A DNA stretch of 64,000 bases from Pseudoscleropodium purum (lineage: Eukaryota; Streptophyta; Bryopsida; Hypnales; Brachytheciaceae), in NCBI GenBank assembly GCA_963969395.1, contig OZ017803.1, positions 17,546,001 to 17,610,000 of the forward strand, given 5' to 3'. A program made the position numbers and the translations under genes. Positions 3,148 through 63,822 of this stretch are shown here, piece after piece. Positions within the stretch are counted from its first letter, which is position 1. Each line of letters begins with the position of its first letter. The notes beneath the pieces are model-generated. The model saw only the letters and a program-made list of their open reading frames with translations, did not search any database and had not been told where the DNA came from.

Positions 3148-3151
3148 TTAA

Positions 3152-4199
3152 CCCCTAAAGAACCAAGGCCATTTTCTTTTCTCAAAAGACACTTAAAATT
3201 GTCATTTCTATTGTATTCATTCAAGAAAATATAATTTTTTTTAAAGGAATCTAGCTGGATGATCTTGTATGTACTTGTCTAAGATCACATGATAAAAATC
3301 TCACAAAGTTTGACCATACAAATTGGATGATATTAGCATTCAAAGTTGGAATTTTTTTGAATGCTAATTTGCAATTTTAGATGACTTTGACCACCATTTG
3401 TAGAAAAAATTTGCACTACAAACTTTGAATTAATTTTTTTTTGTATTGAATAATTGAGTTGAAAGTCGAGGATTTTTTTTTGAAACACACACACTTGATT
3501 TTTGTTCATTAAAAATTTATTAAATAGGAGTAGGTTCAAGAATGGAGGAAAAATTAAATCATTAATAGATGTGAGGGCTTGTTTACACCCAAAAACTTTG
3601 GATTGGAGCCCAAAGAAATGGAGTGTTTTGATTAGAAGATAGCTATGGTATCAATCCAAAGTTCCAATCAAAGCACTCCATTTCTTTAAACTCTAACTCA
3701 AAGTTTTTGGGTGTAAACAAGCCCTAAGATGGGATTGAAACACAATAATTCCAATGGTGAGATTATTCTAGCAAGAAAACTTAACCTTGTCAAAAAATAT
3801 TTAAAAATTACATTCATAAATGAATCCTATATATTATTTTTGCAAAAAAATGCTTAGATTGCCAGAAAAACAAAATTGTCCATTGCTTTCACAACACTAA
3901 TCCAAATGGAAGAAATCAAACTTCATGTATAGACAAAAATAAAATCTATAAGACAATAAACCAAAAGATTTATTTTAAGTTTTTGTGAATGTTATTTAGT
4001 TTGTCAATATGAAAATTATATTTAAGATGGCATAACTTTTGCTTTTGGGCACCATTTGAAACAAAAATTATATTTCCACTAAGTTGATAATTTTTTCTAT
4101 TTTAAGAGAAAAATTCAAAAAAATCCACCAAAATTGAGGTCATAGGAATCTTTCCAAACTTTTAAGAGTCCATTGAAGGAACTCTTGGTTTCTTAGGGG
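3152..4199. mobile_element. TTAA-flanked non-coding element, related subfamily (copy A)
   Basis: Left tip CCCCTAAAGAACCAAGGCC and right tip (read inverted) CCCCTAAGAAACCAAGAG form terminal inverted repeats of about 16-18 bp. Both ends are flanked by TTAA (3148-3151 and 4200-4203). No transposase frame is present. Removing the nested foldback at 3575-3724 leaves about 900 bp, close to the size of the main family elsewhere in the window. The interior differs from the main family, so this is a separate subfamily sharing tips and target site. TTAA duplication with CCY-type tips is the signature of the piggyBac superfamily; assignment rests on the ends only. Confidence 0.7.
3575..3724. mobile_element. 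Foldback MITE nested in copy A
   Basis: Begins GGGCTTGTTTACACCCAAAA and ends with its inverse complement TTTTGGGTGTAAACAAGCCC. The arms pair over roughly 60 bp around a short centre (3637-3660), so the element is nearly one hairpin. It is flanked by TGA and TAA, possibly a diverged 3-bp duplication, and the GGGC tip would fit PIF/Harbinger. Inserted in the middle of the TTAA-flanked element, hence younger than it. Confidence 0.75.
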
Positions 4200-4487
4200 T
4201 TAAATGCAATTTTACTATGGGTCATAATTTTTTATCACAATTAGAGCATCACCATCATGGAGCAACCATATCTTCATGGCAAAGGTTGGCTAGCATGCTT
4301 TGTGAAAGTAAAGGGACTCAGTAGTGTGGGTTGAACAAATTGTAAAATCTCTATTGCCACATTCTTCTATTATCACTATAACTTTCATTTTTCTTCTCTG
4401 TGGCCTTGGTAGATATTGACTCTTCTTTGTCTTGTGTAGCTAATTCAACTTTCTTTTTCTCCAAGCACTCAAGGTACTACTCCTAGT

Positions 4488-4813
4488 CAGGGTTGACAGG
4501 ACGTCCGGACGCGGACGCTGTGTCCGCAGCGTTCGCTGACATTCGCGTCCTGGCGGACGGAGCGTCCGCATGTCCCCCGTCCGCCCCGTCCGCCCATCCG
4601 TCCGCCCGTCCGTCCGCCCGATTACGGCCGTCCGATCGACGCGTGGACTGATCTGGTCCACACGATCTGGGCGTCCGCCTCGGGCGGTCCGTCCGTCCAC
4701 CCCGCCCCGCCCATCCGCTTTCCGACGGCGGTCGGGACGCTGCGTCCGCTAGCGTCCGTGCGTTCGGAAAACGGACGCTATTTTGGGGCGGACGTTGAAA
4801 TTTGTCAACCCTG
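4488..4813. mobile_element. hAT-type MITE with GC-rich CGTCCG repeat interior
   Basis: Terminal inverted repeats CAGGGTTGACA / TGTCAACCCTG are enclosed by a perfect 8-bp duplication CTCCTAGT (4480-4487 and 4814-4821). Eight-bp duplications and CAGGG tips are diagnostic of hAT transposons. The 326-bp body is GC-rich in strongly AT-rich DNA and consists of degenerate direct and inverted GTCCG/CGGAC units. Frames running through it (4440-4700 minus, 4570-4752 plus) are repeat artefacts rich in Arg, Pro and Val. Confidence 0.9.
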
Positions 4814-12340: not shown

Positions 12341-12960
12341 AGCACTCACATAGGTCCATAATTTGTTAAAAATGCTAAAATACAACAAAGCAATTTACAC
12401 TAATGAATGAGTTCAATGCAGGCAAATAGTAAATTGAATACATAAAGATTTTTTCTACAAGAATAAATCTTGTATTAGCATAGAAAAGAATGAAAGAATT
12501 TCACTATAAAAATTTTAACCTCTAAATCAAATTACTATTGAATATATGCGAGTGATTTCAAGTAGATGCTTGTGAAGTCATTTTTAACGGATGTTTTTCA
12601 AATCTTAGCACAAAACATGAACATATACCTCCTTAATAGGTATATAATTTTTATTCTAATTAGTTTTTTAGATCAAAAGTGATATTGTCTTCAATTTTAA
12701 GGGTAGCTTGATGTCGTGTTGCAAATGCAAACATTATATAATATATGTATATTTCTATCATTTAGATGGATTTTGATATTATAACATAGTAAGGGAGATG
12801 ATGTCATTTGAAGTGGCTTCATGATGACGCTTTATTTTTGGCTTTATAGGCAACTATAAAGAAAAAGGATTTGCTTAATAGCTTCATTATTTTGATGTTA
12901 TTCTCTTTGTTTTTCATTTAGATTACTATGTCGCATTGAAGGATTTTTTCTAAATCTTAA
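12341..12960. other. AT-rich intergenic DNA
   Basis: Nothing recognisable. Confidence 0.5.
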
Positions 12961-13387
12961 GATGACGATTCTCAATTGGAGCAGGAATTTGATTTTTCTT
13001 TATCACAACTATTGAATCAACCTCAATAGCCATTGAATTTTTTATTGCAACATGGGCAATTACATGACAAAGTTGGACCATCTCAACTACCAAAACAACC
13101 TCACGTGAAAAAATGATGGCACAAAAATCTTCAATGTAACGCTCAAACATTGATGATCTTGTTGTAGGTTGAATGTGTTGAGTCTGACAGCCATGAAGTT
13201 TTATTCAAAAGGTATTTTGAAGGTTTAAACAACAATCAATATTATTGTATGGTTAAACCTATCGAGATGAGTCGTGGTCATCAACGATGGTTAGAAGGGT
13301 CAATTAGCCTTTTAACTAAGGCAGATCATGCCAATTATGTTGTTATTATTGTCAACCACATTTTCAAATTTTTGAAGATGGAGTGAT
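12961..13387 (+). pseudogene. Degraded open frame of unknown origin
   Basis: One reading frame runs from 12961 to a stop at 13387, interrupted by only three stops (near 13027, 13111 and 13166). The translation has protein-like composition: an acidic Gln-rich start (DDDSQLEQEFDFSLSQLLNQ), and at 13167-13387 an uninterrupted 73-codon segment including LFKRYFEGLNNNQYYCMVK and HQRWLEGSISLLTKADHANY. I do not recognise the family. It could be an eroded transposon or retrotransposon protein; chance cannot be excluded. Confidence 0.3.
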
Positions 13388-15626
13388 ATTTTAATTGGAC
13401 TTTTAATTTTTTACCTCTATCAGACATTCATTTAGTAATAGTCTTCATATTTATGCTTGGAGTATTTTATTAGAATTTTACAATATGATTATAGTTGTAG
13501 AAGTAAAACATGGAGTTAGTTTGCTTTCTAGTTGAACTTTGAAGTGAATTTCTTTCAAAGATAAAGATAATGAGATAGTTGTAGGGTCAAGTTGTTGATC
13601 AATTATTGATATTGTAGCTTTGTGAGCAAGTTAAGGATTGATATCCACTTGTTTGTGGGATAGGAATGAAAAAAGTTGAGGAAAAGGTGAATACTATTTA
13701 TCTTCTCTCGTTGTGAGTTTTGGAGGAACCTAGATGTTTGGAGGCATTGTGTATTGATTATGAAGAATTTGAAAATGAAAATTTGAAGAGTTGTGTATTA
13801 TGATGTTGTGATTTTACTTGATTTGAAGTTAGTATTCAAAAGTTGTACTAGTTTGAGTGGAGAAAGATTTGCTGCATCTTATATGAAGGGACTGAGACTT
13901 TGAACATCTATAGAAGATGAACGTGTTTTTTATTTGCTATGAAAATTTGAGGGAGTATAAAAAATATTTTTAGATTTCTATGAAAATATTATACGTTCTA
14001 TTTGGAGTTTATATGAGTGATTAATGAACATTGAAGTGAAAGAGGATTTGCTGCCCTCAATTTTAAAGGTTGAAACTTCGGGCGGCTATCGATGTTGGAC
14101 AAAGTGTTAAAATGACTTGATTTTTTAAGGAAAAATAGGAATATATGTTAGCTTTCTAAAAAACTATCACTCACTTCATTTAAAGTTGTAGAGCAATGGT
14201 GGCATTCATTCAAAGTTTAGCTTTGAAATTGAAGTTGCGGTTGGAATTGAAGTTGAAGATAAAAAAAAAGACTTGTGTGTTGTATGTTGTGACTTTATAA
14301 ACATTTGTTGTTGTGGGTGGCTTGGTTTATACCAATGCTTAATCTTATTTTGTATCGTAGTGACGAGGTGGAGTTAATAGTCCACATGGTTGAGACTTGC
14401 TTGTTCTCACGGTGAAGCTTGGTTCTTAAAACTGGTCATTGGGAGTTTGAAGTTTAAGAGACAATTTTTGAACGGTTAGCTTATAGTTTGGCTATCATGT
14501 TTTACCTGTTCGAAGCCGTGGGATCTTATTACACACCTTAACTTTTATATCTATTTAGAGCTAGCTAATACATGATAGGTCAATAAATAGCAGTTCAATG
14601 GTAATTTAGAAAATTCAACGTTCAAGACGGAAGATTCGACATGACTATGACTTTCAGTCTTGAACCATGATAATTTAGTGGTTGAATATGTTGTGATGAA
14701 TTCACTCATACTCATCTTTTTTATTATTTTGTTGATTGTTAATAGGATGAATCTACGAGTGACAAGTTCACTTGTTTTTATCATCTTACGACTTTTTTTA
14801 TTTCCAAACCATTTTTTATCGCAACTAGAATCTCTGTGATTTTCCAAGGCAAACGTTCTCTACACGACACCGAGAAGCTTCAAGTAGCATATACAAAACT
14901 CCTTCAATAATTTTGGAATTTTAGTAGGTATGTAACTTACATGATATAAAATGCAAATGTAAAAAAGCCCCGTATATAGTGTAAAAATCTCACTTTAAAA
15001 GTTAATGTTTGCTAATCATGTTGGACATAATTAGAAAATAGTTTTTTCTTTTAACTTCAAATATTATAATTTTTCAATTTTTGCAATCAAAATTTTTGAA
15101 ATTTTTTCTACACATTCTCACAATAGTCTAGTATAGATTTGTAGAATTGAATTTAGGAAGAAAAAAATCTTTTTTTAACCATTGCTTTGAAAAGTAGCAT
15201 ATTTTCACAATTTTTGTCTAAAATGTACCTTGATCATTTCGGGGTTAATACAACTAGGAGAACTATTCCAAGAAAACAATTGTCACAACTAATGATTGCA
15301 AATACAAAATAAACTAAGTTGCAATTTTCTACAATATATTCATCCAATCATGCATGTAATATAAACAAACTAGATTCCTATAATCCCCATGCACATATGT
15401 GTATACATGTACATATGTATATATTCCTAGTAGACTTCATCTAGAGATTATGGAAGGGGATAAAGAATCAAATTCTACAAAAGAATGCTAAAATAACCAA
15501 CACACAAAATGTAATGGACTAGTGCAAAATTATAAATAAAAAAATCTAAAATACTTTGTTTCATATCTAAGTGTTCAAGCATGCATTTTTAGATGACGAA
15601 TTTTGTGAAAAGTGCACTATATCCAA
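13388..15626. other. AT-rich intergenic DNA
   Basis: No gene or bounded repeat recognised. The minus frame 14551-14847 (98 codons, Ser/Lys/Thr-rich) shows no motif. Confidence 0.5.
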
Positions 15627-15630
15627 TTAA

Positions 15631-15900
15631 CCCCTAAAAATCCAAATTACGATTTTTGGCAACATAGCAATTTTGGAAGCTCACAACAAATGGAATTTCT
15701 TTTCTATGAAATTTTCACACAATATGTGGACAAGGTTTTTCTTTAAGACCCAACAATTTTCATAACTTTTGACTACATGGTTAAAAAATTATTGTATGAT
15801 ATGTCGTTTTTTCCTAAATTAGGTAGTCTGGCTTGATAAAAGAAAATCACTTTTATAAAAATAAAAATTTGAAATTAATTTTCTAGATTTATATATATAT

Positions 15901-15968
<68 letters not shown>

Positions 15969-16586
15969 AAATAATTCCATTTTGATTAATGAGATGAAAA
16001 TTATGAGGAGTTCTAGTTTGCACATAGTTATAGATCATCTACTCTATAATAAACTTTGAAGCCCTTTATTTAACTCAATTTTCAATATTTTTGAAAAAAA
16101 TAAAACCAAAGGATGTAGATTTTTTATTACAAAATTACAAATAATGGATTGGCATTTTTCAATTCCATAACTATATTCTTAACAACTTAGTACTTTGAAT
16201 CATTTTACTTATTATTTTTTTCCTATGTGTTGTACATTTCCAAATGATCTAAATTTTTTTCAAGCATGTAGCTAACATGCCTTAAAGAATGAATCCAAAG
16301 AAGCACCACCAACATGGACATTTTTTCATACAAATGTAACCTTGTGAAGTGCAATTGTCTTGTTTGCAAGACCAATAATAGGATTATTGTCAATTCAAAC
16401 GCTAATATCTTACAATCCACAAGGTGAAAATTTCTGAAATTTTTTCTATATCTTTTCAAACAAACGTGTTATAAGATCCTATAGTTACATTTGTCCCCAA
16501 AAAAATTCCCTAAAATTTAGTACTTGCACTAGAAATGACAATTTTAGAGCATTTTTGGTGAAAACATAGTCAAGAAACTTTACAAG
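15631..16586 (+). mobile_element. TTAA-flanked non-coding element, main family (copy B)
   Basis: Begins CCCCTAAAAATCC after TTAA (15627-15630) and ends ...ACTTTACAAG before TTAA (16587-16590). The interior follows the family order: TTTTTGGCAACATAGCAATTTT near the left end, CATAACTTTTGACTACATGG, AATTTGAAATTAATTTTCTAGA, CCTATGTGTTGTACA, and TTTTTGGTGAAAACATAGTCA at the right end. It carries an expanded (GA)n tract. The 78-codon minus frame at 16223-16459 has counterparts in other copies only because the DNA is repeated. No transposase. Confidence 0.75.
15901..15964. repeat. (GA)n microsatellite
   Basis: An uninterrupted GA tract of about 64 bp inside copy B, absent from the other copies of the family at the same place, so it expanded after insertion. 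Confidence 0.97.
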
Positions 16587-24157: not shown

Positions 24158-27012
24158 TCACTTGGTAACATGTTCGTGATTGTGTTCATGCAAGCTTCTC
24201 GAGATGGCTCCTATAGTATTGGGTGTAGTCCGGCAGCATCCACCTATAAGCTGAGCTCCTGCTTTTCGCCACTCATGTACATATGAAACGAAATCGGTAT
24301 CGGTGATTCCGGTAGACTCCTATAAATAGTGAAGAAAATGAACACCAGGGAACTGTTAGATGTCTGAAACGTTGAGGTTATGTGCAAAAAAAGAATTTCA
24401 AGGACACAGCCATGGAATTTAGTCACATAGTAATGTTAATGATTTGGATCATGACAGAAATAGCCATTAGAAATTTCTAATGTTGAAGATCAACTGACCA
24501 AAACGACCTTCTACAAACAAGATTCAAAGTCTGCTGACCAGGCTTCAATACCATTCAGTGTCCATCTGAAGAATTGTTAGAAATACTAAATGAGTGAAGT
24601 TTACAATACAAAAAAGGGTGCTGTTTTCGACACTGCATTCGACTCTGGAGTGTCGAAAACAACCCCCTTTTTCAGTACGGTTATCAGTCTTTTTGTCAAA
24701 AGTTCAATTAACCAAATCTAAACTTTGCGACTGCTCGAGATAGTAGGCATCTATTCACTCAGATTAGCATTTTCATCATAAACATCAGGGAACAAAAAAC
24801 TTCAAACTAGAGAACCGGTCACCAAAGTTGGACTTAAACAAGTATTCAATGACCAAACGCAGTGAACAATAAAGGGGAGACTTACTACCCACTGCTTAAT
24901 GACAGGATCATAGTGCTCTCCACTATTCGGATAGACCACTATGGGCTTCTTTGTCACCTGCGTAGATACCACCAATTAATAATCGTCAGAAAAGCTTCTG
25001 AAATTATTGCAAGTAACGCACATTAACATGATTATGGGCTAAATTGACGATATACGCACACAGCAACATTTTTGTGGACGCTTAAAAACTCGTGCTGATA
25101 TACAATTACAGCAATGAAAAGGTTAATAAAATATGATTTGTTACCTCACGCGCCGCACAGATGAGACCAAGAATGAAACGAGGAGGCGTGCAGTTGATAC
25201 CAACTGCTACTACTTTAGCGCACTTGTCTACTAAGGAAACACAGTCGGAAAGAGAATCCCCCTTGACGACATTGACACCATCCTTTGAATTAAATGATAT
25301 CCAAGCAGGAGTTCGCAAATTTTCTTCATTTAATAACTCAACTAGAGCCTGCAGAAGATAGTAAACCAATAGTGAGAAACACCGGTGCACTTCCACTAAT
25401 AACCATCAGGTTTCTCGTCGACTCTCCAAGAATAATCAATCAGAATAAAGCAAGCACAACACACAGTTGAAAGGATTTTTGAAGGATTCTTTCACATGTA
25501 TCAGCGATTTTCACAGATGCATAATTCTGATAACTTTCAGATTGAGAATGAAAAGCAAATGCATTTTTCATATCATAAGATGGCCTATAAAAAGAAATTC
25601 CAGTAACACAACACATATTCCAACGAAGGCCAACCCCGGTCAGATTTCGTCAATATTCTACCCACTTGGTAGGGCTGAACAAGAACTAACCTGCGTTTCC
25701 AACTTGCAGGGGATGGTTTCTAGGGCCAATAGATCGGGTCCTGCATCCGCAAGCACCACCAGACGCCGACGATGGAAATCTTTCAACTTTTCAACGGTCA
25801 TGGATGAGCCGTAGTCTCCACTGCAAACAATTCATATGTATTACGTAGAAGCCAGCATACAAAATCAAGCAACGGCAGCGTCAACATATAAACTGTAGTG
25901 AATAGTACTTCCTAAGATTCCAAGCTCTCGGGAGTTTCAATCTCAACTCTAAGCCATTCCGTAAGAGATGCAACAACATGCATCAATCAATATCCAAAGT
26001 TCATTCCAAAAATTTCACCTGCATCCGAAAATACTGAGACAACAGTAGCATACCTGTACTCAGATCCGTCAGCCAAATACGCTCCATAACTACCAATAGA
26101 TGCAGCAACAAGGGCACGCTGGCGGGAACCTGCTCTAGCAGTTCCTGCGAGCACTTGGTTTTGATATTCTTTCCAGAACCTGTCGCGCTCTTCGCGAGCG
26201 ATACGGACACTCTTCTGAAGCAAATCCTCAGCCTCTTCAATTGACAGGCCCCGACTTTGAAACCCCTGAATTGTAGCCTGTCAATCATACAAAACAGTTA
26301 TGTAGTGTTACCAGCATGTTCAGAGCTGTATAGTTCAGGACAACATGTTACATCTTAAATACTGAAAATCAATCCAACTTAATTATTGGCAACTAGAAGT
26401 ATTGGTAATACACAAAGAAACGTAACGCATAGTGCTGCGGAAGAGGCCTAGATGGTTACCGAATAATCACCTGATAAGAAGCTGTCGATATAACAGCAGC
26501 TCCTGCTTCCAGATACTCCCTATGTACCTAATATCCAAAACATCATGACAGAGGACATAAGACCATCGCGCGGACTCGTTTGAAGGTAAATAACGCTGCA
26601 ACTCCGAGCAAAGGATCGAGACATCAAAGCCTTGTATGTTCCTAGAGCGTACAGAGCTTCACACTCTAGGAGATGGATATTGACAAGCAGGCCACTATGT
26701 CACTGTTTGCTCACGAATTGAGAGTAACAAAATTCTATAGCCAGTTTACTTCAAGTCTCAGCCGAACCAAACAAACCGGAAAATGTCAGTAAACAATCAA
26801 TTGATTACCGTGCTGATGAGATCGGGCATAGTGATAAGGCACAGGGCGCTCCATAATGGATCGTTAATATCTGCACCATGACGTTCTAACTGAGTAGCAA
26901 AGCCTCCGTCAGTCGCTACGTATCCCCCTGCCTGTTTCAAAAGCTCTGTAACTACATTGGATGTTTCTGGCTCTTGAGATTTCTCTTCCCGTACGTCCAT
27001 TGTGCGTCCCAT
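24158..27012 (-). CDS. HMT: Homocysteine S-methyltransferase (HMT3-like), 7 coding exons, 349 aa
   Basis: Transfers a methyl group from S-methylmethionine to homocysteine, giving methionine; plant enzymes of this family are cytosolic and zinc-dependent. Coding exons on the minus strand: 26809-27012, 26471-26527, 26054-26277, 25691-25820, 25145-25348, 24889-24957 and 24158-24319. Every intron is GT-AG and phases match, giving 349 residues (family usually about 325-350). Visible hallmarks are DGGFATQLE (residues 35-43), ASIGSYGAYLADGSEY, GPDLLALETIP, the zinc ligand in GINC (Cys258) and the paired ligands in GGCCRTTP (Cys324, Cys325), so all three zinc cysteines are kept. The start chosen is ATG at 27012; a second in-frame ATG at 27000 is possible. 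An acceptor (CTGCAG, exon edge 27047) just upstream implies a 5'UTR intron or a further N-terminal exon. The His-rich C-terminal tail is unremarkable. The gene looks intact. Confidence 0.95.
24609..24675. mobile_element. 67-bp TA-flanked foldback in HMT intron 6
   Basis: Inverted arms of about 28 bp contain GTTTTCGACACT and its complement AGTGTCGAAAAC; the tips read CAAAAAAGGG and CTGAAAAAGGGG. It is flanked by TA on both sides (24607-24608, 24676-24677), fitting a minimal Tc1/mariner (Stowaway-like) MITE. Confidence 0.7.
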
Positions 27013-27047
27013 GCTTCCCTGTACTCCGCGCGAACCTCCCGATTGCC

Positions 27048-29050
27048 CTGCAGAGATTAATATCATGAGTTCGACCGCAAATCTCCAAACAGAAAACACA
27101 AATATGTCAAAAATAAAGTTGCACATGTAGATAAACTTGTCACATCTCATTTTCTCAGCACATTAGGTAAAATGGCAACCTACACAAACATACCTCAAAT
27201 TGAAATACCAAAAACAGGCTGGCATCAGATGTTTAAATAGAGAGCGAGAGTGTTCATCTAGATTACTGTCAAATGATTTCTCTCAATCGAATTTCATGCG
27301 TAAAATATAAAGCGCATAGCGAGACTATGTGTTTGAGGTACTCTTAGATGGCTTCTTTATATCTCAGGTTATGAAGACAGACACAAAAGATTTTAAAAAC
27401 CCCGAAAGCAAGAAGCATCGAACAACATAACAATACAGCTGCGGCGACTTTGACCAAAAGCTACAAATTAACTGAATCCAAAAATCTCTTCAAAACATTC
27501 AATTCAAATTTAAAGCCTTTAGCATGGAAGATAACCTCTATCCTCTTTACTAACAATTCTCCCCCAGATAGAGAATGTTTGTCTAAGGTACTGTCAATAC
27601 ATATATACAAAGCACGCAGTGAGTATCTCTGTGAGGTACTCTCAAAAACTTCTCTCTAGTTCAGATTACAGAGACACTAAAGATCAACAAGATCCCGAAT
27701 GCACATGAAATCCAACAATCCGATGTTTTGAAGTGCGGCTTAGATCACAGCTACAAAAATTCACTCAATAACTTCAATACTGGTTTAGAACCTTTAACAT
27801 AGAACACACCCTCCATTTTCCTTTTTGTTAACACAGCAAATACGGGCAGAGAGCATTCCAGCAAAACAGCCCGAGAAATTACACTAAAGTGCAACAATTT
27901 CTCGAAAACATGCACGGCGGCCATCAACGTTTACATCTCGCCCGGATTTTTCATCTGCTAGCAAAACTCATTAAACTCCTTAAACGGCCTGGTATCAAAT
28001 ACATTAAGAAATATAGCTAGGTAAGAAGCATTTCTCTATGGAACTGTTTTGATTTCTCTCAATCCGAATTTCAAACGCAACTACATAGCACACAGAGCAT
28101 CAGCATGAGGTACTCTTAACTGGCTTCTCACTAGCTCAGGCTACAAACACGGACACTAATAAAGATCTACGAGAATCTAAATGCAAATAGCATCCAGCGC
28201 TCCAAAGCGCCGTAACAATGCGACTGAGACGGCTTTGATCAAAACAGTGGACCAAAAATTTCTTCAAGAACTTCAATACTGCTTTAAAACCGTAAGCAAC
28301 ATGGAACACAACCTCCATCGTCCTTCCCCACAATACAACACGAGCAAAACGAGCAGAGAGTATTCCAAACATTACACTCCAACAATGTCTCTAAAAAATA
28401 CACAGGCGGCTAGCAATCAAACCTTTACCGATTTAAATCGTGCCAGGATCGAAAGGAACTCGCAGCGTTCTCCAACGTTATCTCCTTAGATTTTAAAAAA
28501 AGAGGCTGCAACAATAACCGTCTTTGCCAACCAGAACTTCCACTACAGAGCATGAAACGAGGCCGAGAGCGGCTCAAAAGGATGTGGAAGTAGAGGGGAG
28601 GTGCATGGAGCGCGATTAGCTTGGCGTTCTGGCGAAAAAAAATGTCCGCACTCCGCAACGTGGCTGTGATGTAGTGCTCTGTAGTGCGCAAACTCTCACA
28701 CGAGAATAACAGAGCAAGTTACCAAGAGAACATACGAGAAAAGCCTTCTTGAAAACGCGCTGTTGAGATGCAAAGTCTCAGTTGACGACCGGATTGAGGT
28801 CCGGAAGATGATGACGTGGATACTCCATTCCTGTGCATTTGCTGAGGTGGCACGATGTCACGAGGAGCCCATAACCGTAAAAGAGAAAAGGGACGTGAAG
28901 CTTGCTCAGCCAGAAAGCGGAGTCCCAGCGTTGCAACTTCCCAATCCAATCCCTGTGAGTCTCCACAATCTCTGCTTTCATACAATTCACATCTCTCTTT
29001 GCCCAGCCGATGCAGATTAAAACTGAGTTCATTCCCAAGGATCCCCGGGA
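27048..29050 (-). promoter_or_regulatory. HMT upstream region: probable 5'UTR intron and promoter
   Basis: GC-richer DNA continues about 2 kb upstream of the HMT start. The acceptor at 27048-27054 (minus strand CTGCAG) shows that transcription starts further up. No first exon could be fixed; the frames at 28425-28691 and 28719-29105 (minus) are candidates without motif support. The stretch 27270-28430 is a triplicated sequence (separate entry). Confidence 0.45.
27270..28430. repeat. Three diverged tandem copies upstream of HMT
   Basis: A block order recurs three times with drift: GATTTCTCTCAATC (27278, 28051), GAGGTACTCT (27336, 27631, 28109), a CTTCTC/TATCTCAGGTTA-like segment, AGACACTAA..GATC, ACTTCAATACTG (27770, 28271), CCTTTAACAT-like and ACCTCCAT/ACCTCTAT. 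Spacings differ (about 295 and 480 bp), the second gap holding extra sequence near 27930-28050. Confidence 0.6.
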
Positions 29051-32408: not shown

Positions 32409-34710
32409 TTAGCCCTTTTTCCTCTCAACTGGGAAGTTGGGATTCTTGTGAACTCCTGCACTCTATTGATCCTGACAATAGTAGTTCACACATTAAAGTT
32501 TGAACATGCCTTCAAAGAATAATTGCACCAATTTAATACTCCAGAGTATAAGCTGGAAACAGGGGCTTCTTCTTTACCCTCTACATCTATTCAAAAAGCA
32601 TGGGCATGTAACAGTGTACAGTACTGTACATTGCATCATGCCAATGCTCCACTCATGCTGCCTGCCTGTTGTACTTGAAGGAAGTCAGTTCAAGATACAC
32701 CCTACTAGAGCCTCATACCTTACCAAGTTTTTTTTGTTTTTTTTTTAACATATGAAATGGCATTTTTTTTACATAAATTCCATTGATAAGAAACTATTAT
32801 AGATGACTTTTCTTTTTTACATAAAATTTGAAGGATCAGTAATTGTACTTCTATCCTGCATGGAGAGATTCTTTGTCATTCATCTACATGAAAATGTCTT
32901 CAAGGTTGTCTATAAATCTATAACACTTGAAACACATTGCATACAATAGAGAGTTGATTGTAAAGGTCTCTTTAGTTTGTGATAGGGATGTGAGAAGAAA
33001 GTTTAACAAAGAATAGTACAAAGGAAACATAGCATGAAATTCCATGAGACCCTACTGATTTTGGTGCCTCAAGAAGTTTTGTCCTATGCTTTTCTCATAC
33101 TCTGGCTTGTGGTCCCTCATTTCACACACATTACGATGAACTCTTGTATGCTTGAATTTTTTTTGAATTCTTTTGGGTTTTTTTGGAAGAGGAAGGACAA
33201 AGGAAATTTGTTGTAAAAGTGGAGATGTGGAGTAACCAACCTCCTCTCTAAAAGCAGGGGCTGGTAAGTGAGTCTGTTGCATTTGCTTCTGATGTACGAG
33301 GAAAAGTATCCCAAAGCATGTGAAATGGTCTTGTTCAGCCCTTCTAGACATCTTTAGCAAATTCAGTCCAGGTTCAGTGCATTTGCTTGGAATGCAAACA
33401 ACAAACTCTCATGTGCCATCCATGCAAGTTACTCCTTAATCACACACTCTGTCAGTTTCAGCTCAATTCCTTGCCTTGACTGCATGGGAACCTCGTGAAC
33501 AAATGTTCTCAGTTCAACCCCCCTTTAGTTGCTCAGTCTATCATGCCTCTGACATCATTAATACTAAACTATCATAGGAGTTCGCAATATAAGTTTGACA
33601 ATATGGAGGGAATTAATTTTGATAAAGATTGGGGTTTTAGCAGCAATTATTTTACATTTTGCATTTGCAGCATCACATTGCTTGTATTTCACCGTGTTCT
33701 CACTTCTCACAACTGAACTCCCTGGAGCCCTTTTATTAAAAAATCAATCTTTTTAATGTAGTGCAATTAGAGATGTTGGAATATATTTGATATTCTACAT
33801 CCTTAAACTCTAAAGCCTCCTTGACCTTAAGGGAGACAAATGGATTTTAGGTAGGCTCTTATAGTCTCAGTTTTTGTCATAATTATTTGAATTTTTTTTA
33901 AGATAGAAAAACAAACACATTAGCCTTTTAGGAATATAATTTGTATTTCAATTAGTGTGAGGGAACAAAAGTTATACCATCCTAAGCACAAATTTCAACT
34001 CATGAGGTAGCAAAAGAAATTTATAAATTTTTTAAATGAAAAATAAATTTTTCTATTGTAGATTATACTTTTGTCTACATGTAAAGCTTTGATTTATTTT
34101 AATTGAATTAGTGATGTGAAAGTTATTGGACTTCTTATTTTGTAGGTAATCGTAACAAATTCTAAAGAAAAGAATGTATTGAAAATATTTTTGACCTCAA
34201 TTTTTATAATTTTCAAGAAACAAAAGCTCCACAAGATTTGACATGCTTGCTAAAACAATCTCAACAATTAGTGTGTTTCACTTCCATCTTAGAACTATGG
34301 ATTTTGATTTTGATTTCAACATTAGGATTAGTGCTTGTAGAATTCATACAAAATCGTTAAGCATTATACATTTATCTCTTTTTTTTGGTATTGGTTCCAA
34401 TCTTAAAGAAGTCTTTTAGTTTATTAGAATTTTTGGTATGTGATTTTCACTTTCTATGATATCCAAAGTTTCACTTTCTCTTAAATTTTTGTTTAGCCTT
34501 CACAACCTTGGTAGCTACAAAGATATTTTTTGGATAAGACTTTTTTTAGGTATAGTATGTGAAGTATGATTAAAAGGTCTTGAGTTATTTTTATTTTGGA
34601 ATTGAATATGTTTGGTTATAGGATTTAGTCTCTCTCAAAAGGGACAAATTTTCTAGGTGGTGCAGTACAATTTTCATATAAATGATCTAAATCCTAAACC
34701 CTAGCAATAC
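32409..34710. other. AT-rich intergenic DNA
   Basis: Frames of 60-100 codons occur on both strands (for example 32500-32748 and 33052-33360) but lack motifs and overlap each other. No gene called. Confidence 0.5.
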
Positions 34711-35223: not shown

Positions 35224-35393
35224 GTCTAGTGTTTGTGTGAAAATTTACCCTAAATGGTTGCGTAAATATGGTTTATTGTGCCTTTCAAGTAATGAATCTT
35301 TTCTAAGTGTCTAGTGTTTGTGTGAAATTTTACCCTAAATGGTTGTGTAAGCATGGTTTATTGTGCCTTTCAAGTAATGAATCTTTTCTAAGT
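35224..35393 (+). repeat. Two tandem 85-bp units
   Basis: GTCTAGTGTTTGTGTGAAAA...TGAATCTTTTCTAAGT (35224-35308) is repeated almost exactly at 35309-35393, a recent duplication. Confidence 0.95.
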
Positions 35394-35710
35394 GTCTATT
35401 GGATATGTACTTGAAAGATAAAACAACAAAATATAGTACAAATCACATCTTTGGTCAAATTTAACAAGGCTAATGTGGATTTTAGGGCAAGAGGTTAAAG
35501 TTTTTTATTATCAATTTTAAGTAAAAGATAAGTGAAAGATAAGTTCATACCATATTCAAAAACATAAAATTCATTCAAATCCAAAACTCCTAAAGAAAGT
35601 TATGACTAGATGAAGTCATCAATCTTTGGAATGACACTTTAAACTTCAACCCCCAATTGGTTGATAACTAGACATAAGGTGGGTATAAGCAACCAATTTG
35701 GTAGTATTAA

Positions 35711-36633
35711 CCCCTGAAGGACTAAGGTGTGTTTTTTGGCAACATAACTTTGGGGGGCAAGTGCATGTGACTAGAGATTTCTACATTTTTTGGCCCAAAT
35801 TTTAATAGAAGGTGTAGACAAGGAATATCTTTCATGTGCACTAAATTTTAGGACATTTGGAAATACGAGTCAAAAGTTATGGGCTAAAATGTAGTTTGTT
35901 TCTCAACTCAGATAGTCCAAGTAGATCTGAAAAAATCATTTTTTTCGAAAACAAAAATTTGAAATTGATTTTCTAGATTTATACATGTATAAAAAGCTTT
36001 AAATCATTCCATTTTGATCAATAAGTCAAAAGTTATGAGGTGTTTTAGTTTGTGGGTGGTTATGGATTCTCCACTTCAAAGTAAACTTTGAAGTCCTTTA
36101 TTGAACTCAATTTTCAATATTTTTGGAAAAAAATAAGAAATATTAGTTGAAGATTGTTTATTACAACATTACAACCATTGGGATTTTCATTTTTCAATTC
36201 CATAACTAAATTATTAACAATTTAGTATTTTGATTCATTATCTATTTCTTTCTCCTTACTATTTTTTCCTATATGTTGTACAATTCCAAATGATCTGAAA
36301 ATTTTCAAGCATGTATCCAACTTGCCTTGAAGAATAAATACAAAGAGTTGCAACCATTTTGGACATTTTTTCATTAAAATGTGACCTTGTGAAGTGCAAT
36401 TGTCCGGCTTTTTGTAGGGCCAAAAGAAGGCTTTTTGTTATTTCAAACACTAATATCTTGCAATCTACACGGTGGAAATTTCTGAAATTTTTTCCACATC
36501 TTTTCAAATTATCACAATACAATATCTTACGGTTGGATGTGTTCAAAAATGTTAAATTTTTTTTTAATACTTGTCCTAAAAATGGCAGTTTTGGAGTGTT
36601 TTTGGTGGAAACATAATCAAGGAACTTTAGGGG
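35711..36633 (+). mobile_element. TTAA-flanked non-coding element, main family (copy C)
   Basis: Best-preserved tips: TTAA (35707-35710) then CCCCTGAAGGAC; right end ACTTTAGGGG then TTAA (36634-36637). The interior follows the family order. It is 923 bp with no transposase. Overlapping frames at 36259-36546 (minus) and 36359-36616 (plus) have lookalikes in copies B and G because the DNA is repeated. Confidence 0.88.
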
Positions 36634-41140: not shown

Positions 41141-42060
41141 CCTCTGAAGGACCGAGCTTTGTTTTGGGTTACATGAAAATTTTGGGTAGGTGTATGTGAT
41201 TAGGTATTTACATATTTCTGGCCCAAATTTTAACACAAAAAGTTGGGACAAGGAGTATCTCTCATATGAACTAAATTTTATGACATTTGAAAATTGGAGT
41301 CAAAAGTTATAGCCTAATATGTGGGTTTTTTTTTCCGTAAATGAGCAATCTAGGCAAATAAGAAATAATCACTTTTTTCAAAAACAGAATTTTTTAAATG
41401 GTTTTCTAAAGTTATATATATGTAGAAATCTTTGAATCATTCCATTTGGATTAATAAATCAAAAGTTATGAGGATTTTTTATTTGCAAAAAGTTATGGAT
41501 TTTCTAGTCTAAAATAAACTTTGAAATCCTTTATCTTATTGAAGTTTCAATATTTTTGAAAAAAAATAAAATCATAGGATGTAGATTGTTTATTATAACA
41601 TTGCAACCATTGGGATTGGAATTTTTCAATTCTATAATTAAATTCTTAATAATTTAGTATTTTGAATCATTCTCTACTACTACCTACTTACTATTTTTTT
41701 CCTATATGTTGTACAATTCCAAGTGATTTGAAATTTTTCAAGCACGTATCAAACTTGTCTACAAAAACAAATCCAAATAAGCATCACCATTATGTTCATT
41801 TTTTCATTGACAAATAAGCGTGTGAAGTGCAGCCGCCTTATTTTTTGCAGGGCCCAAAAAATAAGTTCAATGAATTTAATCTTGCAATCCACACGGTGAA
41901 CATTTTTGAAATTTTTACCACATATTTTGAATTTATCTTAATATAAAATCCTATAGTTACAAATGTCAAAAAAGGTGTTCTTTCAAAAATTTGATACTTG
42001 TATTAAAAATGGCAATATTCAAGTGTTTTGGATGAAAATATAGTCATAGAACTTTAGGGG
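41141..42060 (+). mobile_element. TTAA-flanked non-coding element, main family (copy D)
   Basis: TTAA (41137-41140) then CCTCTGAAGGACC; right end ACTTTAGGGG followed by ATAA, a one-base decay of TTAA. Family interior throughout; 920 bp, no coding capacity. Inserted into the large LTR-like repeat copy 2. Confidence 0.85.
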
Positions 42061-43184: not shown

Positions 43185-44375
43185 CATTAGAAGATTTTCA
43201 GTTGCATTGGAGGGCTACAAGTTCCCTCAAATTTTCAGACCCTATGAACTCATAGCACCTATTGCTTGACATGGCACAATGACTACCACGTCATTAATCT
43301 ATAAAGGCTTAAACTACGTTTTTTTGGCAACATAGAAATTTTGGACAACTCACCATGAATGGAATTTTTATTTTTTTTGTTGGATTTTAACACAACATAT
43401 GCCCAAGGAGTAGCTTTAAGGTCCAACAATTTTCATAACTTTTGACTACATGGTTAAGAAGTTATCGTATGATATGTACTTTTTTTTGTTTAGTAAGCAA
43501 CCCGAGCAACAAAAAAAACTTCTTTAAAAATTATTTCTTTAAAAAATTAAAATTTGAAATTGATTCTCTAGATTTATACATAATTGGAAAGCTTTGAATC
43601 ATTCCATTTTGATCAATGAGTCAAAAGTTATGAGTTTTAGTTTGCGGGAGTTTGCGGATTGTTATTGAATCTCTACTCTAAAACAAACTTTGAAATCCTT
43701 TATTTAACTCAATTTTCAATATTTTTGAAAAAAAATAAAACATTAGGTGTAGATTGTTTATTACAACATTACAACCATTGGGATTGGCATTTTTCAATTC
43801 CATAACTAAATTGTTAACAATTTCATATTTTGAATCATTCTCTACTCTTTCCTACTTACTATTTTTTTCCTATCTGTTGTATGATTCCAAATGATTTGAA
43901 ATTTTTCAAGAATGTAGCCAACTTGACTTGAAGAATTAATTCAAAGAGTAACCACTATTTTGAACATTTTTCATATAAATGTAACCTTGTGAAGTGTAGC
44001 TGCCCAGATTTTTGTAGGGCCAAAATAAAAAAATTTGTCACTTCAAATGCCAATATCTTGCAATTTGTATGGTGGAAATTTCTGAAATTTTTTCCATGTA
44101 TTTTCAAACAAGCTTTCTACAAGTTCGTATGAATATATGTGTCCAAAAATGTTTTTTTTTTCTAAAAGTTGATATTTGTACTACAAATGACAATTTTGGA
44201 GTGATTTTGGTGAAAACATAGTCAAAATCATTTAGAGGTTAAGAAAAAATTTCAACTTTTTTTTTTCATTTTAAAACTAAAAAAATCTCACATCGGTTGT
44301 TCTTTGGCTATTGGGGGAATAACAATGGGAAAAATTCTAAAACAGCCTTCTCAGTCCCCCCAAAATCTTTTAATG
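43185..44375. mobile_element. CATTAG-family MITE, copy 4, split by copy E
   Basis: Left half 43185-43297 starts CATTAGAAGATTTTCAG and runs to CCACGTCATTAA. The right half 44239-44375 resumes TTAAGAAAAAATTTCAAC and ends CCCCAAAATCTTTTAATG. Joined conceptually across the insertion, the order matches the intact paralogue at 30514-30767. Confidence 0.78.
43298..44238 (+). mobile_element. TTAA-flanked non-coding element, main family (copy E)
   Basis: Flanked by TTAA at 43294-43297 and 44239-44242. The left tip has decayed to TCTATAAAGG and the right tip to CATTTAGAGG. The family interior is complete (TTTTTTTGGCAACATAGAAA, CATAACTTTTGACTACATGG, CCTATCTGTTGTATGATTCC, TTTTGGTGAAAACATAGTCA). 941 bp. 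It splits the MITE at 43185-44375. Confidence 0.88.
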
Positions 44376-46594: not shown

Positions 46595-47414
46595 CTCTTA
46601 AAGTTTTATGACTATGTTTCTTTGGAAATGCTTGAAAATTGCCATTTTTAGTACAAGTACTAAATTTTCAAAATTTTTTTGACATATGTAACCATAGAAT
46701 CTTGAAATGTGTTGACTTGAAAACATTTAGTAAGAATTTTAGACATTTCCCTTGTGTAAATTGCAAGATATGACCATTCAAATTCATTGAAATCATTTTT
46801 TATGCCTTGCAAAAAACAAGGTAGCATTTTTAAAAGTTGACTTTTCTATGAAAAAATAAACAATTTGGTGGTACTTATTTGGATTCTTTTTCTTAAACAA
46901 GTTAGCTGCATGCTTGAAAATTTTCACATCATTTGGAATTGTACAACATATAGGAAAAAATAGTAAGTAGATAATAGTAGAGAATGGTACATAATACAAA
47001 ATTGTTAAATATTTGACTATGAAATTGAAAAATGCCAATCCCAATGGTTGCAATGTTGTAATAAACAATCTACATCCTATAATTTTATTTTATTTCCAAA
47101 ACCATTGAAAATTGAGTAAGGTAAAGGACTTTAAAGTTTATTTTAGAGTAGAGAATATGTAATTGTCCACAAACAAAAATCCTCAAAACTTTTGACTCAT
47201 TGATCAAAATAGAATGATTCAAAGCTTTCCACACATATATAATTTTAGAAAACCAATTTCAAAGTTTTGTTTTTGAAAAATGTGATTATTTCTTATTTGC
47301 CTAGACTATTCATTTACAAAAAAAATAACATATAAGGCTATAATTTCTTACTCCTATTTTCAAATGTCATGAATTTTATTGCATATGAAGGATATTCCTT
47401 GTCCACACCTTCTA
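46595..47414 (-). mobile_element. TTAA-flanked element, main family, reversed and truncated (copy F)
   Basis: Reads in reverse: TTAA (46591-46594) then CTCTTAAAGTTTTATGACTATG, the inverse of the family right end, through CCTATATGTTGTACAATTCC and the family interior to GATATTCCTTGTCCACACC at 47389-47407. It stops at an internal TTAA of the family sequence, exactly where copy G begins, so about 110 bp of its left end are missing. Confidence 0.8.
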
Positions 47415-47418
47415 TTAA

Positions 47419-48343
47419 CCCTTAAAGGTCAAATCTGCATTTTTTGGCAACATAACAATTTTGGGCAGCTTACTATGAATGGAGTTTTTACTCTTTTTTG
47501 CTGAAATTTTCACACAACATGTGCCTAAGGAGTAGCTTTAAGGCCCAACAATTTTCAAAACTTTTGACTACATAGTTCAAAAGTTATTGTATGATATGTC
47601 ATTTTCAATGCTCAGTGGGCAACCCAAAAATTTCTTTCAAAATCACTTTTTTCAAAAACAAAAATTTGAAATTGGTTTTCTAGATTTATGTATATGTGGA
47701 AAGCTTTGAATCATCCCATTTTGATTTATGAGATGAAAGTTATGAGGTGTTCTAGTTTGCGGGTAGTTATGGATTCCCTACTCGAAAATAAACTTTGGAG
47801 TCCTTTATTTAACTCAATTTTTAATATATTTTCAAAAAAATAAATCATATGATGTAGACTGTTTATTACTATATTACCACCTTTGGGATTGGAATTTTTC
47901 AATTTTATAATTAAATTCTTAACAATTTAGTGTTTTGAATCACTTTGTACTTTTTTCTACTTACTATTTTTTTCCTATATGTTGTGCAATTCCAAATAAT
48001 CTAAATATTTTCAAGCATTTAGCTAACTTGCCTTGAAGAACGAATCCAAAGAAGCACCACCATTTTGGACATTTTTTCATACAAATGTGCCCTTGTGAAG
48101 TGCAGCTGCCTATATTTTCACAGGGCCAAAAAATGGATTTTTGTCACTTCAAATGTAAATATCTTGCAATCTACATGGTGGGAAATTCTGAATTTTTTTT
48201 CATATCTTTTCAAACTAGTTTACTACAAGATTATATGGTTAATTGTATCCAAAAATGTTTTATTATCTAAAATTTGGTGCTTGTATTAGAAATGGCAATT
48301 TTGGAGCGTTTTTGGTGAAAATATAGTCTCCGACCTTTAGGGG
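47419..48343 (+). mobile_element. TTAA-flanked non-coding element, main family (copy G)
   Basis: TTAA (47415-47418) then CCCTTAAAGGTC; right end CCTTTAGGGG then TTAA (48344-48347). Complete family interior; 925 bp. Abuts copy F tail to tail. Confidence 0.88.
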
Positions 48344-48347
48344 TTAA

Positions 48348-48955
48348 AAATTCAGTTTAAAATATACAAATCCTCATTCACAACCTCAAAATTTCTATAT
48401 AATAAAAAAAAAACATATTGGTCCTTTAAGAATTAAAGATTGAAAATGTGCAAAACAAGGGTCTTCTAAAAGTCTCTATCTTGTCTATTGGGTGGATGGC
48501 AAGTAATACATGGTTTTTATTCGTGTGAAACTTGCCTAGGGTTGATACACATTGAAATTCCCTTTATACTATATCCAAAGTCCTAACATTCTAAGTCATA
48601 GTTTAAGGCCAAATTCCAACTTTTTGAGGTTGTAGAAGGTGAATAAAAATGATAAGATATGAGACTTGGGACTTTATAGAATGAAAGCCAAAGTCCCAAG
48701 TCTAAGTATCAACTTGACTCTTGTATAATAAGATATTGCTATTCAATACTTAAAAAATAAATCAAAAAGTCTAAAATCCATTTTGTAGACACTTTTAGTA
48801 TCAAATCTACATTAGAAAGATTTAGAGAAATTTTAACCTACTAGAATACCTTATATTGTTTGGTGTTTTTCTCCTCACTTTACATTCAAAAAAATTGTTG
48901 GGACTTGGAAGATGAGCTGGCTTTCTATTACTACTAAACCTAATTTGGCCTCTAA
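48348..48955. other. Intergenic DNA, no gene seen
   Basis: A short inverted pair, GACTTGGGACTTTATAGAATGA and CCAAAGTCCCAAGTCTAAG (48662-48706), is the only visible structure. Confidence 0.5.
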
Positions 48956-55900: not shown

Positions 55901-57041
55901 GCGTTGTCAGCAGACCATCCAGCACTGCAGCCGAAAGACAGCTTCATGTTCTCACTGTACACAATCTTTCTCGGAGCCGGTAATACCGGACTCACAGCGA
56001 GGGAAGCCATGTCCGACATACTGCAACAAGGGCCACCTGGTCTGGAGGAGCAAGGTGCAGTTCAATCTAGCCGACGCACGGCGAAGCTGCTTCGGAACTC
56101 GCCTTACTATATGGAGCTTGGGGCGGGAAAGTTCGCTCTCTGCAGTGCAGTGATTAACACAGGGGAAGTATCCCAACCCAGTTTGCAAGAGGAGCTTGAC
56201 TCGGGAAAAGCTTTGGTGTTCAGCACAGCGGATGTCAGTCAGGTATGCGCACCTTAAAGCGTCCAAATTCGCATGTCAGCATGGTTCTGGACCTAGTTTT
56301 GGTTTGGTTTGGTTAGCAATTGATTGGCGTGTAGTAAACTATGAATTTGAAAAGGACTAATTATCAGTGTTCCCAAACTGAACTCTAGGCAAGAATCACG
56401 GTCAAATTTGTGTACATTTTATGCAAGAATCCATAGGAGTGGCCTTTGGGTAACTTAACGTTCTAGCACCTCTTGCAATGGTTTCTTCTGCAGTGGAACT
56501 GTGGGGAGAACATTATTCCAATAGTACCACTGTGGATCAATTAATCAATTCAAAGATCTCTTGCTCTCATTTCTGACTTACATCTTGAAATGGAAAGGGA
56601 CCTGGAATGGTGAGTTCAAGAATATTATAGAGGCCGGCAATTAGGTTTAGTTACCTTCTAACCCTGACCATCCACCAGAAGCGGAGGCCGATTGGGAGTG
56701 ATGTGCGTGAAGGAAAAGCCCAGGACCCCGGTAGTGAAGCCAAAAGCAGGCCAGGTCGAAGTGGGCGTCCGAAGAAGCTGAAATACATGAAGCAAGAGAA
56801 TGTTGAAGAGCTGGGCAAGCAATGCAACAGGACTGATGGGAAGGGATGGGTTTGCCCGTTATTGGCCAAGCCCGGGTACCAGTTGTGCGACCATCACCTA
56901 GACAAGCTGCGCTGCAAGCCGGGTAGCAGATCGAAGAAGAAGAAGAACCGTCAACTGGCTGCAGGCGAGCCTGAGCCTGAGCAGGCTATGGAGACGCCTA
57001 CGGATGCAGAGGCTCCCTTGGACACAGCTGGGCACGAATAA
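52939..57041 (+). CDS. HARE-HTH-like and WRC domain protein, probable nuclear regulator, 6 exons, 578 aa
   Basis: Exons 52939-53668, 53820-53947, 54951-55033, 55534-55568, 55845-56242 and 56679-57041 join in phase at GT-AG introns. The start MRIRKQQPRG follows a probable 5'UTR acceptor. Residues 1-325 are mostly low-complexity, with conserved-looking stretches FTFTWLDKLRYSKGF (near 80-93) and SAALAQVLQLRSDASLPSAF (near 177-196). Residues 357-425 (SLYTIFLGAGNTGLTAREA ... LLRNSPYYMELGAGKFALC) resemble the HARE-HTH winged helix of ASXL/HB1-type chromatin proteins. Residues 485-493 (RSGRPKKLK) look like an AT-hook, followed by a WRC motif Cys507-X9-Cys517-X10-Cys528-X2-His531 and a basic SRSKKKKNR signal. 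WRC is the DNA-binding/nuclear-targeting motif of growth-regulating factors, but the QLQ domain is absent. A role in transcription or chromatin is inference. The open stretch at 54313-54425 could be an extra exon, but it lacks a donor. Confidence 0.82.
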
Positions 57042-58489: not shown

Positions 58490-59207
58490 GGTAAATTATT
58501 GTCCAACATCATTGTGAAGCATGTTTTGAAAGAAGTTGGATTGGGTACACATGTGCAACAGAAGAAGCCATGTTTGAATCATAAACAAATTCTTGTATGC
58601 TTGAAGTTTATTCAAATGTATGAAAATTGGAATGTTGATTATTAGAAATGCATGATTTTTAGAGATGAGACAAAGATAAATAGGTTATAACTAGTTGGTA
58701 GGTCATGGTGTTTGAACTACAACATATCCATTAGATCATAAAGCATTGTAGTGGACTAGTGATGATTTGGAGATGTATGAGGGCTTTTAGACCGGGAGCA
58801 TGGTATATAGAATTGAAGGTAGTATGAATATTCAACTATATAAATATATTTTAGAAAATTTCTTGTGGTCTACTATACAAAATTACAATTTGGATCCAAA
58901 TAGATTGGTCTTTCAAAATGATAAAGATTTCAAGCATTCAAGCAAGATTGTGAAGGAATGGTTGGCATCACAATCATTTCAACTCCTTAAATGGTTTGCA
59001 CAATCTCTAAACTTGAATCCTATTGAATACTTTTGGACACTTCTCAAACGATGCTTGAACAAATTTACACCACTTCCAAAAAGATTTCAAGAATTGTGGG
59101 AATGTGTGTGTTTTGTGTATTTCAATTTCAATGAAGAAGATTGCATGGAGCTTTATGAGAGCATGCCAAGAGGAATTGTTGTTTTGTTGAAGTGTAGAGG
59201 CTATTAG
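58490..59207 (+). pseudogene. Tc1-type (DD34E) transposase pseudogene
   Basis: A decayed transposase of the Tc1/mariner superfamily. The 58493-58690 frame reads VKHVLKEVGLGTHVQQKKP and, after a stop, IFRDETKINR, which holds the first catalytic Asp. After further stops and a frameshift near 58795, an open frame from 58800 to 59207 gives RIEGSMNIQLYKYIL, LVFQNDKDFKHSS (second Asp, codon 41) and LNLNPIEYFWTLLK (Glu, codon 76), then ELWE and ESMPRG at the C-terminus. The second Asp and the Glu are separated by exactly 34 residues, the Tc1 signature, whereas typical plant mariners are DD39D. The N-terminal DNA-binding domain and terminal repeats were not found. Broken by several stops and at least one shift. 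Confidence 0.85.
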
Positions 59208-63369: not shown

Positions 63370-63822
63370 GAGTTAAAGTATGGGATGATGACCCATTTCC
63401 TACTACTTAAGGAATTCAGCATAATTGTTGGATGGGTGTATTCAGGGAAATATTTTTCCCATGCACAGAAATTGATTTAAGAAGGATTCAAAAAAAAATT
63501 TACATATTTTTTGGTCCAAATTGAAATTATTTTGAATTTTTTTCCTAAAGATTCTTTGCAACATATTCTTGTTATGTAGGTTGTTGTAATTCCAATCATA
63601 GGCTTGTTACAAAATTGATGTAAGTGATAATTATATACATGCCGTGATCATTCTATGCTTTCAATATACATCTCTTGGACAATTTTGTAGCTCCTACAGG
63701 TCTTGCCGTATGTGAGTTGTAATGTAAATAGAGCTATGATTGGAAATAGAGTAGCCTATAGTATGAAGGGGGGGGGGGGGGGGGGGGGGAGGGGGGGTCA
63801 TGGTCGGAAATGGGTTGCCTAC
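63370..63822 (+). repeat. Dispersed repeat D, copy 2
   Basis: Aligns with 17976-18360 (words listed there), with an extra segment of about 60 bp at 63635-63695. The coding-like WDDDPFPTT stretch is present but is followed by a stop. A G-run is inserted at 63768-63789. Confidence 0.65.
63768..63797 (+). repeat. Poly-G tract
   Basis: 22 consecutive G, one A, then 7 G. Such a run may form quadruplex structures and is also a common sequencing or assembly artefact. Confidence 0.95.

Follow-up and report, generated by a model that had tools for sequence, protein, structure and literature searches.

A family of TTAA-flanked, non-coding repeats in the moss Pseudoscleropodium purum shares its right end with piggyBac transposase loci

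The stretch of DNA analysed here, 64,000 nucleotides of contig OZ017803.1 (hereafter the window), contains six copies of a non-coding repeat of about 0.93 kb. The copies form one family (family A) with TTAA on each side and ends of the type CCCCTAAAGG...CCTTTAGGGG; they start with TTAACCCCTAAAGG-like and end with CCTTTAGGGGTTAA-like sequence. When the copy at 43298-44238 was used as a blastn query against the window, all six copies of about 0.92-0.95 kb that had been predicted from the sequence were recovered at their predicted positions (Table 1). Their lengths are 917-964 bp counting TTAA, their pairwise identities are 71-81% over 890-930 aligned bases, and going by their coordinates, they account for about 5.6 kb (8.7%) of the window. 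The original prediction had placed TTAA on both sides of the full-length copies, with a single right flank changed to ATAA, and this is what was found: TTAA was present at 10 of 11 junctions and ATAA at one. As TTAA accounts for only 0.84% of the tetramers in the window outside the copies (488 of 58,375), its presence at the flanks is far beyond chance.

Table 1. Positions of family-A copies and other transposon-related features in the window
Feature	Position	Strand	Remarks
Element D, diverged seventh element	3148..4203	-	TTAA at both ends included; nhmmer E 1.4e-16
Weak family-type right end, tip CATTTCGGGGTTAA	15052..15248	+	nhmmer E 2.2e-4, high bias
Family A copy 1	15631..16586	+	TTAA both sides; internal (AG)31 run 15903-15964
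Family A copy 2	35711..36633	+	TTAA both sides
Family A copy 3	41141..42060	+	TTAA left, ATAA right
Family A copy 4	43298..44238	+	TTAA at 43294-43297 and 44239-44242
Family A copy 5, larger part (element's right end)	46595..47414	-	outer TTAA 46591-46594
Duplicated target TTAA of copy 6, left copy, within copy 5	47415..47418		
Family A copy 6, inserted in copy 5	47419..48343	+	
Duplicated target TTAA of copy 6, right copy, within copy 5	48344..48347		
Family A copy 5, remaining left end past copy 6	48348..48432	-	outer TTAA 48433-48436
Tc1-like transposase remnant (DDE_3, PF13358)	58791-59207	+	

A weak, biased match to the family-A profile was also obtained at 34001-34287 (E 9.5e-5). Elsewhere the window contains an 85-bp tandem duplication (35224-35398), a G-run (63768-63797), a WRC domain (56631-57041) and a piece of a homocysteine S-methyltransferase that scored slightly under the cut-off (26797-27162). 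These last two are pieces of plant genes and, like the G+C content and the Tc1-like remnant, they agree with a moss host. A search of plasmid collections gave no match to the copy at 43298.

The reversed copy 5 had been described as truncated, with TTAA at its intact end. The TTAA is present, but the copy is whole: it is split by copy 6, which is inserted at an internal TTAA, and its left end survives on the far side of copy 6, where it terminates in a tip and TTAA of its own. Aligned to copy 3, this left-end piece scored 58, compared with a maximum of 45 among 1,772 random stretches of the window. For copies 2, 4 and 6 the same random-stretch test yielded 0/1,762, 1/1,771 and 2/1,757, respectively; with copy 1 the match was not significant (310/1,774).

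The nested arrangement provides a paired empty site. The joined flanks of copy 5 align unbroken at the junction to three stretches from elsewhere in the genome, L137 (79%), L134 (76%) and L144 (79%), and to copy 3 of the window (75%). Each of these four relatives carries one TTAA at the target of copy 6, the outcome that the original prediction had anticipated for empty sites. L136 and L141 likewise span the junction, and copies 1 and 6 have TTCA, not TTAA, at this position. Six more pairs of filled and empty sites were aligned (L131/L145, L137/L139, L137/L135, the L135 tandem array, L142/L144 and copy 4/L129). Five of them run straight across the site and L142/L144 does so with a one-base gap there. 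Exact TTAA was found in the empty relative of none of the six (TTAG in the L135 array, for example), several of which are only 67-71% alike; these pairs therefore support the length of the duplication and not its letters. Family A inserts at TTAA, which ends up duplicated. Two other junctions were seen among the sampled stretches. At 3587-5462 of L144 two opposite family-A copies have one TTAA in common (4539-4542), a back-to-back insertion, and at 1-1318 of L133 a family-A left end is broken after about 200 bp by what appears by eye to be a retrotransposon end.

To follow the family beyond the window, the genome (313,191,705 bases in 52 contigs) was searched with one copy. The search gave 10,132 first-look candidates, of which 40 were scored, and at least 46 matches; among the matches listed, the best other genomic copy was 89% identical to the query. 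Twenty of the listed places were taken with their flanks, a sample that favours query-like copies. End statistics were compiled from distinct ends that reach the ends of the model, leaving out eight duplicate loci (L121-L128). Of 35 left ends 33 have TTAA, as do 31 of 35 right ends; the other flanks among these ends were TTAG, TTTG, ATAA, TAAA, TTCA and CTAA. In the accessible parts of the papers cited here and below, TTAG, TAAA, CTAA and ATAA are recorded as rarer piggyBac flanks (PMC10813416, PMC8634313). Conservation continuing past the TTAA, for which the original prediction had proposed a check, was absent: positions beyond it carry at most 0.28 bit of information each in the 35 left and 35 right ends.

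By sequence, duplication of TTAA is indistinguishable from duplication of TA by an element with ends A...T. Family A could therefore be moved by a TA-duplicating Tc1/mariner-like transposon that has such ends and prefers TTAA, and the window does contain a DDE_3 fragment (Table 1). This Tc1-like remnant has nine relatives in protein collections, 40-67% identical, and Tc1-like elements are known from moss and at a low level from angiosperms (PMC4054914). Against such a mover, conservation is as strict at the outer T and A as at the inner TA: all 35 left and all 35 right ends keep the outermost base.

The consensus built from 27 full copies has a length of 953 bp counting both TTAA; the copies themselves are 917-964 bp long and 77-94% identical to it. 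The longest stop-free stretch in the consensus is 93 aa, and family A is without transposase coding capacity. Both ends carry TTAACCCCTAAAGG exactly, which makes an exact terminal repeat of 14 bp counting TTAA. The 14-base tip pattern was also seen in at least 120 matching stretches of viral contigs. A subterminal motif, GCGTTTTT..TGGCAACATAG / GCGTTTTTGGTGAAAACATAG, is present in direct orientation at both ends (24/27 left and 26/27 right ends with at most five differences), and may have a role in transposase binding. The family shows the MITE traits of being non-coding, having terminal inverted repeats and existing in many copies of similar size. At about 930 bp it does not show the size trait, MITEs usually being shorter than 500 bp (PMC2872659), and 'MITE-like' is therefore the safer term.

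Short inverted repeats starting with CCY inside the TTAA had been predicted, and the consensus does start with CCCC, with CC in 23/27 left and 19/27 right tips. The commonest tip is CCCC (16/27 left, 15/27 right), and CCCT occurs in 4/27 left and 1/27 right. The consensus start differs from the piggyBac motif CC[C/T]T, found with TTAA (PMC2872659), and other piggyBac starts are on record, for example CCCTC and CCCAT (PMC10813416). Read inward, the tips are pyrimidine-pyrimidine at all 27 left and all 27 right ends. This bears on the possibility that a Kolobok-type transposon mobilises family A. Kolobok elements are on record from green and red algae (PMC9587614) and duplicate TTAA as seen here, but their termini follow the opposite purine/pyrimidine rule, 5'-RR...YY-3' (PMC9587614), which fits 0/27 left and 0/27 right tips.

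The abundance of the family was estimated from a random sample. Sixty positions were drawn on nine contigs and the first ten were used as 5-kb stretches (G+C 34.6%). The family-A profile covered 4,882 of these 50,000 bases (9.8%), within 4 of the 10 stretches; much of the coverage came from L158, and one stretch there is nearer to element D. By this measure family A accounts for several per cent of the genome; the error on this figure is wide. The proposal that the family is a major component of the genome is thus supported by the one-copy genome search together with the random-sample coverage. Most of the sampled family-A copies are old.

Family-A tips were also found on elements with different interiors. 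These comprise element D of the window, a family B (L139 4790-6158 and L145) and a family C (L138, L142 and L131). Element D has common ground with family A in its last ~200 bp only, and has relatives in L132 and L133. Its interior (about 3574-3725) contains an inverted-repeat pair starting GGGCTTGTTTACACCC, which we take to be reminiscent of a Tourist-type MITE. At L156 (1199-1947), two family-A left ends form a 749-bp foldback with TTAA on both sides. Its arms are identical at 359 of 368 positions (97.6%), which points to an origin more recent than that of most sampled copies, or to homogenisation. Judging from this structure, two left ends may on their own be sufficient for mobility.

Larger elements with tips of this type were considered as autonomous partners. 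The stretch at 12515-15248 of the window, which is 2.73 kb long and carries a TTAA-type tip at either end, was rejected, its interior being a dispersed repeat of at least about 2 kb also present at L149 3054-5000 (70% identity over 1,975 bp). A Pfam search of four translated pieces of this stretch found no transposase, just weak, sub-cut-off matches to HSNSD_N in two pieces. L145 1331-5527 and L138 2959-5735 are composites, in which copies of family A occur within, or next to, other families that bear such tips.

A six-frame search of the genome with PF13843, the piggyBac transposase domain, yielded at least 117 matches (best E 2.2e-66). In this search 116 of 512 candidates were scored and introns were not modelled; all matches are above the curated cut-off. 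The same domain gave no match in 14 control genomes. Internal stops were found in 115 of the 117 matches and the remaining two are partial; no intact, complete transposase was seen. By inspection many of the stops are TAG and TGA, the codons that loss of methylated C would be expected to produce from CAG and CGA. At L163 a stop-free piece of 322 aa matches PF13843 (E 8.7e-49) as well as the solved piggyBac (6x67, E 1.2e-11) and piggyBat (9c0f, E 2.6e-10) structures. The piggyBat alignment covers ..TIDE.., ..TDN.. and ..GVDVADQ.., presumably the three catalytic aspartate sites of a piggyBac-type transposase. The piece has 137 relatives in protein collections at E<=0.001; the best 120 of the 137 all contain PF13843, the best-scoring being 57% identical, and some of these 120 exceed 500 aa. 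DNA relatives of the L167 transposase are at most 75% identical (among at least 46 matches, with 40 of 78 candidates scored), and the coding copies seen are therefore old. Many decayed piggyBac transposase genes thus coexist with family A in one genome.

Family-A right-end sequence was found 3' of the transposase domain, on the same strand, at 4 of the 12 transposase loci cut out. First-pass matches were clear at L165 (E 8.3e-11) and L169 (1.6e-7), and weak at L160 (0.025) and L163 (0.059, at the end of the locus). Three of the four loci were extended downstream (E163, E169 and E160), and E165 was not extended on that side. The match at E163, strong only after extension, covers model positions 573-950 of 953 (E 2.7e-49), ends in AACTTTAGGGTTAA and is separated from the transposase domain by about 1.4 kb. 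At E169 the match covers model positions 602-849 (E 6.8e-11), and the tip CATTTAGGGGTTAA lies 104 bp past it, which is the spacing of the model. The match at E160 (794-952, E 0.0017) reaches the tip CATTTAGGGATTAA, and at E165 (564-812, E 4e-11) no tip was recognised. Two of the four loci end in the canonical tip, CATTTAGGG[G/A] directly before TTAA. A reversed-sequence control on the same four loci gave a best E of 0.49. At these 4 of 12 loci, therefore, a stretch downstream of the transposase has homology with the terminal ~150-380 bp of family A at its right end. The other eight gave no match within 1.5 kb downstream, a range too short to exclude one. The original prediction had looked for a larger element with the same tips and a piggyBac-type transposase. 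Its right end is present at the four loci, but its left end was not found: upstream of them (three extended in that direction) no left tip scored above 6.9, the family maximum being 24.8, and nothing at these loci matched the first ~560 bp of the family.

These right ends might be later chance insertions beside transposase genes, which would link family A to piggyBac by neighbourhood only. The family is dense in the genome, a separate family-type right end lies on the opposite strand about 650 bp past the E160 tip, and the four loci were chosen for having a downstream match. However, no opposite-strand family match was obtained at E 0.1 in the 12 loci as cut out, and at the four loci only the right end is present, no left tip lying near it. 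The E163 match is moreover only about 66% identical to A copies, compared with the 77-94% identity of A copies to their consensus, and two of the matches run to the canonical tip. We therefore regard chance insertion as very unlikely.

The presence of this right end at piggyBac-transposase loci also weighs on the choice of mover. Together with the tips, it makes mobilisation by a Kolobok-type transposon extremely improbable. A TA-duplicating Tc1/mariner-like mover is, given the fixed outer bases and this right end, hardly credible, and the Tc1-like fragment of the window was set aside on account of the right end. Sola3 has TTAA as its target, and a Sola3-type transposon would agree with family A in this respect; set against the right end common to the piggyBac-transposase loci, we give it next to no probability. 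Resident PF13843 transposases and shared right ends make the family-A elements miniature relatives of piggyBac, and the piggyBac-type reading put forward in the original prediction is supported by these two observations and by the TTAA duplication.

Family A thus very probably consists of non-autonomous, MITE-like elements of the piggyBac superfamily that were moved in trans and derived through loss or replacement of the middle of a transposase-bearing element. A piggyBac transposase would bind the miniatures at their tips and subterminal sequences, cut them out and paste them into TTAA, and the family would have decayed afterwards. On a wider view, to which we would give about an even chance, a piggyBac lineage has long been resident in this host, has diversified into families A, B, C and D, which differ in their interiors, and now ranks among the larger components of its genome, at perhaps a tenth. 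To our knowledge, piggyBac has shaped genomes on such a scale only in animals.

The family and its putative source have much in common with piggyBac IFP2 and piggyBat, namely PF13843 with aligned motif regions, the TTAA target and CCC-type tips. Unlike these elements, the system has transposase matches that are interrupted by stops or partial, and a long non-coding right flank. The CMITEs of corals (PMC2872659) resemble family A in their TTAA duplication, short terminal repeats starting with CC and lack of coding sequence, and in the presence of piggyBac transposase elements with similar ends in the same genome. Compared with animal piggyBac MITEs, family A is longer (about 930 bp, as opposed to about 100 bp in PMC2872659), starts with CCCC, has a plant host and shows homology downstream of a transposase gene.

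The supposition that piggyBac transposons are not usual in plants needs qualifying. A draft fern genome (Ceratopteris) has 1,230 piggyBac-annotated elements, amounting to 122 kb or 0.00% (PMC6890710), PiggyBac is named as one of seven MITE superfamilies of angiosperms (PMC10004981), and a general statement lists PiggyBac in plants (PMC10794571). The accessible part of an account of moss transposons (PMC7466625) mentions neither piggyBac nor TTAA. In view of the fern and angiosperm annotations, family A belongs to a kind already described, and as a label piggyBac is not new to plants. These earlier plant records, as far as the accessible text goes, consist of trace amounts or of the name only, whereas in the present genome the family profile covers 9.8% of the small random sample, and transposase genes as well as an empty site are present. 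In the open literature, a scope outside which most subscription papers fall, we found neither a description of family A nor such abundance in a plant. Family A is a new family of a known kind; what is surprising is how abundant it is in a plant.

piggyBac is a workhorse vector that has been studied mainly in animals. With over 100 matches to the piggyBac transposase and miniatures at several per cent, a plant genome of this sort would offer a native plant piggyBac system, in which host control of TTAA transposons, TTAA-targeted insertion near plant genes and the origin of repeats that may be annotated as "unknown" could be studied.
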